Assembly (NCBI RefSeq): GCF_016586165.1
Contig: NZ_BCPR01000016.1
Location: 1-64,000, forward strand
DNA length: 64,000 nt
Direction: 5' to 3'
From: Dyella sp. EPa41
Lineage (GTDB): Bacteria; Pseudomonadota; Gammaproteobacteria; Xanthomonadales; Rhodanobacteraceae
Shown: positions 17,488 to 25,646 of the stretch, one piece after another
Numbering within the stretch: the stretch's first letter is position 1
How the letters are laid out: each line of letters starts with the position of its first letter
The notes under the pieces: generated by a model
What the model was told of the DNA's origin: nothing
Databases searched by the model: none
Seen by the model: only the letters and a program-made list of their open reading frames with translations
Translations under genes and position numbers: made by a program

Positions 17488-18423
17488 TTATTCGAAGGAG
17501 TTCGGCTGGGCGCTGACATTCTTGAGTGCCGCCAGCGCTTCTTTCATCGCAGGGCTGTTGGCTATGGCCACGATTTTTTGCGCATAGGAGGGGTCGGTGG
17601 CGTAACCGCCGCTCACCAGGCCGCGCGCGAAACCCACCACGTCCTCGCCGTGGTTCAGCGCCTTGGCGTAGCGCGGGTTGTCGGCAATCAACTGGGCGTA
17701 GTCGTTGAACGATTCGCCCGGGTTGTTGTACGAGCGGAACTGCGCCCGACGGTGCACCGCCACGCCATCCTCGAATTCCAGCGTGGGCACGCTGACCTTC
17801 TGGCCGTCCCAGCTGCTGCCCGCCTTCATGCCGAACAGGTTGTTGCTGGTGTCGCCGTTGGAATGGGACGGCATGTGCTTGCCCCACTGCGTTTCCAGCG
17901 CGGCCTGGGCCAGCACGGCGCGCACCGATACACCAAGCTTCTCGGCCGCCTTCTGCGCGTATGGCGCCAGTTCCTTCACGAATGTCTGCGCGTCCTGCGG
18001 CAGCCACTTCACCACGTCGGCGCCGACTGACTTGGCCGCATGGACGACGGTGCCGAGGCGCTGCTGCCAATCGTCGGTTTTCGCGCCCCCGGCCGCGCCC
18101 GAGGAAGAGGAGGAGGCGCCGCCCAACTGGCGCATCAGCATCTGCGCGATGCCCAGGCCGTTGCCCTGCGAGAGGTTCACCGACAGCTGCTGGTCGAACA
18201 TGTCGCGCCAGGCGTTGCCCGCCTCGCTGTCGCCCAGGCCGTCGCCCGGGCTGGCCTCGCGCATCGACTTCAGCATCATCTGCGTGAAGATCGACTCGAA
18301 CTGCTTGGCGACGGCCGGCAAGGCGGACTTCGCGTCCGACTGCGCCGTCTGGCGCAACGCTCCGAACCCGGACAGATCCGTCCAGGTGTTGAGGCTTTTG
18401 GCGGCGTCCCCTGAGATGGCCAT
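17488..18423 (-). CDS. flgJ: Flagellar rod assembly protein/muramidase FlgJ
   Basis: FlgJ caps the growing rod and cuts a hole in peptidoglycan. The 311-residue product is the two-domain proteobacterial form. The N-terminal rod-binding domain spans about 30-105 (IFTQMMLKSMREASPGDGLG). The C-terminal glucosaminidase-family domain spans about 150-300, with the candidate catalytic Glu in AALETQWGKHM and the NNLFGMKAG motif. A Ser/Gly/Ala linker joins the two. It overlaps the flgI stop by one base (TGATG), as expected for coupled translation. Confidence 0.96.
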   Translation of the reverse strand: MAISGDAAKSLNTWTDLSGFGALRQTAQSDAKSALPAVAKQFESIFTQMMLKSMREASPGDGLGDSEAGNAWRDMFDQQLSVNLSQGNGLGIAQMLMRQLGGASSSSSGAAGGAKTDDWQQRLGTVVHAAKSVGADVVKWLPQDAQTFVKELAPYAQKAAEKLGVSVRAVLAQAALETQWGKHMPSHSNGDTSNNLFGMKAGSSWDGQKVSVPTLEFEDGVAVHRRAQFRSYNNPGESFNDYAQLIADNPRYAKALNHGEDVVGFARGLVSGGYATDPSYAQKIVAIANSPAMKEALAALKNVSAQPNSFE

Positions 18424-19805
18424 CAGATCACTACCAGCTCCGCGTGGAGCGCGCCGGCCTGTTTCAAGGCCTGCAGGATGGAAATGAGATCGCTCGGCGA
18501 AGCGCCCACCTGGTTCACCGCGCGCACGATGGTGTCGAGATTGGTGCCGGGGCCGAACTTGAACATGTGGCCGCCGTCTTCGCTCACCTGCACGTTGCTG
18601 TTGGGCACCACCACGGTCTGCCCCTTGCTGAAGGCTTCCGGCTGGCTGACGCTCGACTGCTCGCTGATGGTCACCTGGATCGCGCCATGCGCCACGGCGG
18701 CCGGCGTCACGCGCACCTCCGAACCGATCACCACGGTGCCGGTACGCGAATTCACCACTACGCGCGCCGGTGCGTCACCCGGGTTCACGTCCAGCGCCTG
18801 GATCGCGCCCAGCCACGCCACGCGCTGGCTGGCGTCGGCCGGACCGCGCACGGCCACCGAGCCGCCGTCCATCGCATTCGCCGTGCCCGCGCCATAGGTA
18901 CGGTTCACGGCTTCGGCGATACGCGTGGCGGTGGTGAAGTCCGGCGTATTGAGGTTGAGCATGAGATCGCCATTGCTGTTGGCGAACGACGAGGCCACGC
19001 TGCGCTCCACCGTCGCGCCGTTCGGCACGCGGCCGCTGGCGGAAATATTCACCTGCACGCTGGAACCGCTCTTGCCCTGCGCGCTGATGCCGCCCACCAC
19101 CACGCTGCCCTGCGCCATCGCATAGACGTTGCCGTCCGCGCCGCGCAACGGTGTCATCAGCAGCTCGCCGCCGCGGATGCTCTTGGCGTTGCCGATGGAG
19201 GCCACGGTGACATCGATGGTCTGGCCCGGCTTGGCGAACGGCGGCAGCTGCGCCGTGATCGTCACGGCCGCGGCGTTCTTCAGCTGCGGGCGCACGTTGG
19301 CCGGCACCGTGATGCCGAACTGCACCAGCATGTTCTCGAGGCTTTGCGTGGTGAACGGCGCCTGCGTGGTCTGGTCGCCGCTGCCATCCAGGCCAACGAC
19401 GAGGCCGTAGCCGATCAACTGGTTGCTGCGCACGCCGCCGACCTGCGCGAGGTCGCGGATCTTGTCGGCGTGGGCCAGGGGAATGAAGGCGCAGAGCAGC
19501 AAGGCAAGAGCGCCACCCCACCCCAGCCCTCCCCTGCGTGCAGGGGAGGGAGCGCTTGCGACAAGCCTCAGCTCCACCCCCATGCTTGCAGGGGAGGCAG
19601 GCTTCGGTCCCCTCCCCCTACTTGCAGGGAAGGCAGGCTTCAGTCCCTTCCCCCTGCTTGCAGGGAAGGCAGACTTCAGTCCCTTCCCCCTACTTGCGGG
19701 AAAGGCAGGCTTCAGTCCCCTCCCCCTGCCTGCAGGGGGAGGTTGGGAGGGGGTACAACCTTGCGCCAGTCCACGCAGGAACGAACCCATCTTCAGCACG
19801 TTCAT
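18423..19805 (-). CDS. flgI: Flagellar P-ring protein FlgI with repeat-expanded signal region
   Basis: FlgI makes the periplasmic P-ring bushing around the rod. The mature part begins near [20 protein letters not shown] and is normal to the C-terminus. The N-terminus is not. Starting at the ATG that overlaps the flgH stop, residues 1-16 look like the front of a signal peptide. About 81 residues of repeat translation follow, including roughly four 12-residue units such as [12 protein letters not shown]. The hydrophobic core [16 protein letters not shown] then resumes. The full form is 460 residues against about 365-370 for the family. An internal ATG at 19583 would give a 386-residue form with a workable signal peptide but no obvious ribosome site. 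Confidence 0.93.
19515..19757. repeat. 36-bp repeat array inside flgI
   Basis: About 243 bases of GC-rich repeat sit within the flgI signal-peptide coding region. The unit is 36 bp (containing CAGGGAAGGCAGGCTTCAGT on the plus strand), repeated about four times with small changes, so copy changes keep frame. The array is flanked by an inverted pair of CCCTCCCC/GGGGAGGG palindromes (about 19528-19550 and 19720-19754) like those found between genes elsewhere in the window. Confidence 0.85.
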
Positions 19806-20485
19806 CAGTACGGCATCCACTTGGAATTGAAGAAGCGCGACAGCCAGCCCTGCGTGTTCGCGTCGGCCAGCGAACCCTTGCCGGTATAGGCGATTTGCGC
19901 GTCGGCCACGCGAGTGGACGGCACGCTGTTGTCCTGCAGGATGTCCTGCGGGCGCACGATGCCGGAGATGCGGATCAGCTCCTGCCCCTGGTTGATGGTG
20001 AGCATCTTCTCGCCGCGCACCAGCAGGTTGCCGTTGGAAAGACGCTGCGCCACGGTGACGGTGATCGAGCCGGTGAGCTGGTTGCTCTGGCTGCTGTCGC
20101 CGCTGCCGTCGAAGCTGCGGTTGCCGGCGGTGGAAATATCCGCCGCCTTGCCGCCCACCTTCAGCGCATGGCCGAGGATGGTCGGGGCGGTGATGTCGGT
20201 GTTGTCCTTCTTGCTGGTGCTGGTGCTGGCCTTCTTCGACGCCTGCGTGCTCTCCACCAGCGAAATGGTGAGGATGTCGCCCACGCGATGGGCGCGCGCA
20301 TCGTTGAACAGCTCCATGCCCTGCTCGGCGTGATAGATCGCGCCGTCGGTCGGCGGCGCCGCGTTCTGCTCCACCGGCATGGTGGCAGCCCACTGGTGCT
20401 CGTCGCGCGGCGGCTGCATGCCGCAGCCCGCCAGCAGCACGAGCGCCAGCGCAGTGGAAAGACGGGACAGGGAACGGAAGGACAT
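19805..20485 (-). CDS. flgH: Flagellar L-ring lipoprotein FlgH
   Basis: FlgH forms the outer-membrane L-ring. The ATG at 20485 gives 226 residues with a lipoprotein signal ending in the lipobox LLAGC (about 17-21), so the Cys is predicted to be acylated and the protein sorted to the outer membrane. The body contains the family segments [20 protein letters not shown] and [10 protein letters not shown]. It ends in a TGATG overlap with flgI, so the rings are translated in series. The longer open frame upstream belongs to flgG in another phase. Confidence 0.96.
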
Positions 20486-25283: not shown

Positions 25284-25309
25284 TGTAGGAGCGCACCCTG
25301 TGCGCGACA
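25284..25309. repeat. Single REP arm, mixed variant
   Basis: One REP arm of mixed type (AGGAG with CCTGT) and no nearby inverted mate. It opens the 2.2-kb repeat region between flgB and cheV. Confidence 0.65.
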
Positions 25310-25342
25310 GCCTTTCGCGACAGCCTTTCGCGACAGCCTCCA
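25304..25342. repeat. 13-bp tandem repeat, three copies
   Basis: GCGACAGCCTTTC is repeated at 25304, 25317 and 25330, with the last copy slightly changed. It begins inside the REP arm, so it probably grew by slippage from it. Confidence 0.75.
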
Positions 25343-25370: not shown

Positions 25371-25449
25371 CCAGTAGTGTCCAGTCTTCGGCTGTCGCGA
25401 TACGGCCAGGTTGCCGCCTACGCAGCGGGCGTTTCGACGTCCTGCCGGC

Positions 25450-25646
25450 GACGCGAAGCTAGTCCCGTGGGACGACGCGAAGCTAGTCCCGTGGGACGAC
25501 GCGAAGCTAGTCCCGTGGGACGCTCGAGTCACTTTTCTTTTGCTGGCCCACGCACGCGCTCTTTGCGTGCGAACGGCGAAGCCGGCCCGCAGGGCGGAGG
25601 GCGGAACGCCCGGAGTCAAAGATCCCACGGGGACTAGCTTCGCGTC
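25450..25646. repeat. 24-bp triple tandem repeat with distal inverted copy
   Basis: A 24-bp unit beginning GACGCGAAGCTAGTCCCGTG occurs three times head to tail (25450-25521). An inverted copy follows at 25623-25646, about 100 bases away, with one extra G. The spacer holds a GC-rich stretch with its own small palindromes (CGCACGC/GCGTGCG; GGGCGG/GGGCGG). There is no gene. Any of the three direct copies could pair with the inverted one. Confidence 0.85.

Follow-up and report, generated by a model that had tools for sequence, protein, structure and literature searches.

A palindromic repeat element lies in frame in the flgI leader of Dyella sp. EPa41, at a junction where long, repeat-bearing leaders recur across the family

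The window analysed here, a 64,000-nucleotide stretch of a Dyella sp. EPa41 contig (NZ_BCPR01000016.1), carries the flagellar genes flgH and flgI on its minus strand (Table 1). flgH, which we take to be the L-ring protein gene from its position and from knowledge of the family, is joined to flgI by a TGATG at 19807–19803, in which the flgH stop shares one base with the flgI ATG (19805–19803), as a sequence-only reading of this DNA had already described. The same reading held mature FlgI to be intact, which agrees with its PF02119 match and its high identity to relatives. With the cleavage site placed, tentatively, after AHA, the leader comprises 113 codons, compared with 41 in the nearest relatives. 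Matches of the five distinct solved P-ring sequences to FlgI begin at residue 102, 104 or 115, indicating that about 100 N-terminal residues have no counterpart in them. Elsewhere in the window, perfect tandem repeats of 24 bp (25449–25522, 3.1 copies) and 13 bp (25303–25339, 2.8 copies) were present.

Table 1. Features of the flgH–flgI locus in the window, and position of the HrpA linker in the same genome.
Feature	Position	Strand	Details
flgH	19805–20485	−	226 aa; stop TGA 19807–19805
flgI CDS (flagellar P-ring protein)	18423–19805	−	460 codons + stop; PF02119 at residues 115–459, E 7.3e-142
flgI leader, first 17 codons, ahead of the repeat element	19755–19805	−	
Repeat element	19515–19754	−	240 nt = 80 codons (codons 18–97), in frame
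Triplex-type motif 1, CCTCCCCC-loop-GGGGGAGG-TT-GGGAGGGGG(T)	19719–19754	+	9-nt arms; mirror tail with 1 mismatch
36-bp tandem array encoding 12-residue units	19578–19737	−	TRF: 4.4 copies, 87% matches, 0% indels
Internal in-frame ATG	19581–19583	−	would give a 39-residue leader; no SD-like sequence 5′ of the ATG
Triplex-type motif 2, inverted relative to motif 1	19515–19550	−	9-nt arms; mirror tail with 2 mismatches
Hydrophobic core + AHA cleavage motif	19467–19514	−	hydropathy 3.04; window begins at −15
Mature FlgI	18426–19466	−	similarity to relatives and to solved P-ring sequences
HrpA linker, this genome	L264 2414–2510 (G000 contig C79)		

The leader contains a repeat element that is open throughout in the flgI frame, in agreement with the earlier description of a stop-free insert whose length is a multiple of three. 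That description had counted 16 residues ahead of the insert and about 81 within it, where 17 and 80 codons were found; its span of 19515–19757 was right to one codon, with the outermost motifs ending at 19754 and 19515. A 36-bp array between inverted palindromes, also proposed from the letters, was recovered by TRF, by a second repeat search (array at 19562–19741, spacing 36/36/36) and by motif search, and a 21-nt piece of the array unit occurred four times with at most 3 mismatches, against 0 expected from 100 shuffles. Slippage in steps of 12 residues is possible in the array; the units were 75–82% identical to one another (72-nt windows), which does not indicate that any slippage was very recent. 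Both ends of the element show, in two 36-nt matches, the geometry of an intrastrand triplex motif, that is, an arm-loop-arm hairpin with a mirror-symmetric purine third strand, and this arm, loop and tail geometry is the basis on which the motifs are provisionally assigned to the triplex type. The ends, ACCCCCTCCC and GGGGTGGGGT, carry neither a GTAG nor a CGTC tag. They are inverted, as in a MITE; a target-site duplication was not seen by eye, and the diverged leader leaves no matching empty site. RNA folding gave a z-score of −3.46, with 1 of 200 shuffles folding equally well.

Intrastrand triplex motifs (TM) of E. coli are always intergenic according to the accessible text of Holder et al. 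(2015; PMC4666352), and the motifs described there share with ours the pyrimidine arm, loop, purine arm and mirror-like purine tail, the richness in G/C and the occurrence of some inverted pairs. Two patterns were searched, with reversed patterns as controls: type A, the classic triplex motif, and type B, a strict pattern for the variant in the window, which differs from the TM in its TGC..GCA loop and in the 36-bp array between two motifs. Type A motifs, closely resembling the E. coli motifs in Table 1 of the accessible text of PMC4666352, were present in 20/20 genus genomes, with 46 matches in this genome and 0 for the reversed control. In this genome, type B matched 11 times, at 6 places (control 0): flgI, hrpA (in frame), and contigs C5, C12, C23 and C130, where the four places were intergenic-looking or uncertain as judged from ORF lists only. 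Thus, the motifs are multi-copy here and, unlike the E. coli TM, not confined to intergenic DNA, being in frame in both flgI and hrpA. Among relatives, type B matches numbered 44 in G018, 22 in G012, two each in G007 and G014, and one each in G002, G004, G006 and G010; there were none in eleven of the 20 genus genomes, G005 and G008 among them. G018 and G012, the two richest in type B, likewise carry long flgI leaders. The in-frame flgI array contained 0% indels, vs. 3% and 4–6% in two other arrays of the genome. Those two arrays, at L260 (2643–2946) and L261 (2341–2594), belong to the same element type and are built of 47–48-bp units. No RAYT was found near the element, the sole PF01797 match in the genome being located on contig C90 rather than C16, and PF01797 was likewise not detected in G012 despite its type B matches, which leaves a RAYT-driven spread of the element unsupported.

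The hrpA copy concerns a long in-frame linker that the RNA helicase HrpA carries at one mid-protein place in 20/20 genus genomes (loci L264 and L265–L284). Because this linker is mid-protein, such elements can be coding. A triplex-type motif was detected in 17 of the 20 linkers; those without were L266 (G018, in which a type B peptide is readable but decayed), L267 and L272. Ns are present in L282 and L284, and the printed frame of L282 has stops. The solved HrpA 6zwx, presumably the E. coli protein, has 7 residues between the blocks flanking the linker place, and a linker-free HrpA query matched 34 of 37 family genomes in two pieces and three (G020, G030 and G034) in one. This genome and G018 share an HrpA repeat type unlike that of the rest of the genus. 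Identity around the linker was 88, 79, and 90% to G018 vs. 78, 53, and 77% to G008, with one window lacking aligned columns; upstream, G008 was closer in 9 of 10 windows, and downstream the windows were mixed, with the longer 3′ alignment favouring G008 (91 vs. 85%). The HrpA linker region may therefore have been exchanged locally with a G018-like lineage, to judge from these identities.

The claim that repeat-family DNA has become an in-frame part of the FlgI leader held up on comparison with relatives. The counter-possibility raised with it, an ancestral insert shared by relatives, was not what was found: in the three nearest relatives (G005, G007, and G008), whose mature FlgI is 97–98% identical, the leader has 41 codons and the element is absent. 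DNA identity to these three was about 87–95% for flgH and mature flgI (92–95% to G005 and G008) but only about 51–65% for the leader outside the element (aligned windows, 27–59 columns), indicating that the whole leader was either replaced or fast-evolving. Such divergence does not appear to support a model in which the element simply inserted into a signal peptide like that of the relatives. Of the proposal that the repeat splits a conserved signal peptide, the in-frame position within the leader stands, but a clean split does not, given how far the remaining leader has diverged. A second FlgI-like gene, about 42–44% identical, was observed in several relatives (G013:C1, G018:C16, G009:C20, G002:C1, G015:C29, G158:C383 and others), which suggests a second flagellar system in them.

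The survey searched 233 family genomes, 141 of which yielded FlgI; 130 junctions were fetched and 125 analysed, leaving out L210 (search motif absent), L022, L024, L138 and L165 (no recognisable flgH stop) and eleven FlgI genomes. The distance from the flgH stop to mature FlgI ranged from 68 to 536 nt. With a long leader defined as more than 130 nt, 64 of the 125 leaders were long and 61 short, and long ones were present in 11 of the 17 genera analysed. The insert described from the letters is real in this strain and belongs to a wider pattern, shared across the family, at the flgH–flgI junction. Triplex-type motifs were present in 27/64 long leaders from 7 genera, where mononucleotide shuffles predict 0.1, and in 0/61 short ones. 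GTAG-type or CGTC-type palindromes were found in seven more long leaders; altogether, 34/64 fell in some named repeat class and 30/64 in none recognised, and the classes occupying the junction vary widely in sequence. On a quick maximum-likelihood tree of one gene (mature flgI), the long or short state changed at least 18 times, and presence of the triplex motif at least 24 times, the latter number being an overestimate because decayed copies escape the detector. Among the 36 closest loci with titled records (L031–L066, mostly Rhodanobacteraceae to judge by title), used as a junction control, lengths of at least 60 nt above the minimum were observed at 17/35 flgH–flgI junctions, vs. 2/35 for flgF–flgG, 0/35 for flgG–flgH and 3/36 for flgI–flgJ. 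Approximately 150–270 extra nt at flgI–flgJ (L032, L039, and L064) and flgF–flgG (L065) are perhaps further repeat insertions. In most of the 44 more distant loci, L067–L110, an in-frame ATG lay no more than about 50 residues ahead of mature FlgI, and inspection by eye showed no such repeats (L072, a Rhodanobacter, has Ns there).

One explanation for these observations is that the element acts as a nucleic acid, its hairpin or triplex tuning mRNA stability, translation or local recombination, with translation of the insert being incidental. The low folding z-score, matched by so few shuffles, would fit such a role, as would the influence of MITE and REP hairpins on mRNA (accessible text of PMC3733652 and PMC2229807) and the link between triplex motifs and local instability (accessible text of PMC4666352). 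However, nearly half of the junctions make do with short leaders, and the repeat classes at this site differ widely in sequence. We consider this role unlikely, although it is compatible with the reading preferred below.

An ATG coupled to flgH was present in 59 long leaders, in 53 of which it was in frame and open to mature FlgI; it was out of frame in six (L030, L112, L141, which contains Ns, L190, L196, and L206) and absent in 5 of the 64 (L188, L192, L195, L197, and L200). In these, downstream starts must serve, and read-through is not obligatory. Among short leaders, 60/61 had the coupled ATG, every one in frame. The other two frames were open in 2/59 and 25/59 (the latter being the +2 frame); an open frame alone was rejected as evidence of coding, because in this GC-rich DNA the antisense and +2 frames frequently lack stops as well. 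To allow for kinship, leader lengths were compared in path-disjoint tree pairs: 38 of 43 differences were multiples of three, as were 22 of 26 when the comparison was limited to differences of 30 nt and above (P ~1e-7 against a simple null of 1/3, on a single-gene tree). These frame statistics support the view that the insert is translated in frame.

The sequence-only reading had allowed that the internal ATG at 19583 could be the working start, in which case FlgI would have an ordinary 39-residue signal peptide and most of the array would be untranslated leader RNA. The 39-residue product is a plausible signal peptide, the frame-broken relatives must use downstream ATGs, some of them with SD-like sequences (L190 −9.8, L196 −7.0, L030 −8.6, and L206 −4.1), and the accessible text of PMC3733652 warns that many N-terminal REPs are possibly non-coding. 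Furthermore, 23 of the 53 in-frame leaders contain an internal ATG or GTG preceded by a strong SD-like sequence (duplex energy at or below −6; 10/53 if only ATG is counted). It exceeds the one at the coupled ATG (−3.1 or −4.3), making an internal start a live option in those leaders. In the window, however, the duplex energy was +1.3 before 19583 vs. −3.1 at the coupled ATG, as calculated with the standard anti-SD sequence rather than one taken from this genome (the hydropathy scale was likewise a standard one). The 80 codons in frame, the conservation of the frame across the family and the lack of indels in the array also speak against it, so that the evidence does not favour initiation at 19583, whose use in this strain seems quite unlikely.

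The best hydrophobic window began 11–20 residues before the mature end in 64/64 long leaders, and the net charge of the n-region had a median of +5 in 45 long leaders vs. +2 in 59 short ones. The part lengthened is the n-region, while the core stays beside the cleavage site. The pN/pS was 0.35 for the genus's short leaders, 0.38–0.53 for four groups of long leaders without recognised repeats, 0.58–0.69 for three triplex-type groups, and 1.02 and 1.04 for another two long groups, including a GTAG-type one. To judge from these values, the residues of repeat-bearing leaders are hardly constrained, and less so than the frame. Purifying selection on the peptide was not adopted as evidence of translation, being weak in repeat-bearing leaders (0.58–1.04). 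A long n-region could itself be adaptive, for instance by delaying FlgI export for a correctly timed P-ring, which would agree with its occurrence in most of the genera analysed and with the low pN/pS of the four groups without recognised repeats; the higher ratios of the other long groups compared to short leaders, and the many short leaders, make this very improbable. A sequencing or assembly artefact is scarcely credible, since, although this is a draft genome of 165 contigs and repeats are difficult to assemble, the frame and flanks are intact, the array units differ in sequence, and single-contig genomes have repeat-bearing long leaders at the same place (G175/L130, G218/L155, and G108/L196).

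The reading we prefer, with a probability of roughly two in three, is that the flgI insert is translated, tolerated mobile DNA that forms a long basic n-region removed by signal peptidase. It builds on the sequence and frame of the insert, its recurrence, the conservation of frame and the preserved core, all of which are observed. An element of the intrastrand-triplex type, palindromic and either mobile or copied, with two inverted motifs around a 36-bp palindromic array, would have come to lie in the n-region. Ribosomes finishing flgH would restart at the overlapping ATG and translate through the element, yielding a precursor whose leader, about 113 residues long, includes the element as a net positive segment rich in Gly, Pro, Ser, Ala, Lys and Arg. 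With the hydrophobic core and the AXA site next to the mature protein retained, the precursor would still be directed to Sec for export; signal peptidase would cut off the entire leader, leaving the P-ring unchanged and the insertion presumably close to neutral. The n-region may be a permissive place, in that an insertion further upstream would break the coupling to flgH and one further downstream the core or the P-ring; such insertions appear to have occurred repeatedly across the family.

A broader proposal, held more tentatively and in our view somewhat doubtful, is that the FlgI n-region constitutes a family-wide landing pad. Given the flgH–flgI coupling and a segment that requires hardly more than positive charge, mobile palindromes of several unrelated classes would find a niche in a packed operon, settle in frame and be recycled into a removable segment, and they may even be shaped as stop-free basic peptides.

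In-frame palindromes are already known from other bacteria. The Rickettsia RPE interrupt conserved genes without breaking the frame and are translated with them (accessible text of PMC2229807). The present case is alike in that a conserved gene stays intact around an in-frame palindrome; it differs in having a signal peptide as its site, which repeats of several classes fill in many lineages. GTAG/CGTC-tagged REPs also occur within ORFs, where clusters encode 43–82 residues, many of them N-terminal, and in recB of two Xanthomonas species REPs lie at about one shared site (Di Nocera et al., 2013; accessible text of PMC3733652). The window element is untagged, and a signal-peptide hotspot is absent from the REP description in that text. 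Mobile palindromic DNA supplies part of an export signal in Yersinia, where a YPAL/RU-2 element forms part of the signal peptide of YPO1552 (Delihas; accessible text of PMC2229807), but that case concerns a single locus encoding a putative new exported protein, whereas here a conserved flagellar gene is affected in many lineages and in its n-region only. Coding palindromes have also been reported in Pseudomonas aeruginosa (accessible text of PMC4496055). Recurrent repeat insertion at the FlgI signal peptide was not found among the papers listed by searches of the open-access PMC literature; this recurrent site appears to be the new part, and as a pattern in the genomes surveyed it is well supported.

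Triplex-type motifs, always intergenic in the E. coli reports, thus occur here inside conserved genes, and gene callers may misplace the starts of such leaders. The flgH–flgI junction offers a natural experiment, in which one cleaved signal peptide has apparently been lengthened many times by repeat DNA. This makes directly testable both the tolerance of Sec for n-region length and the persistence of mobile palindromes as coding sequence whose product is discarded.
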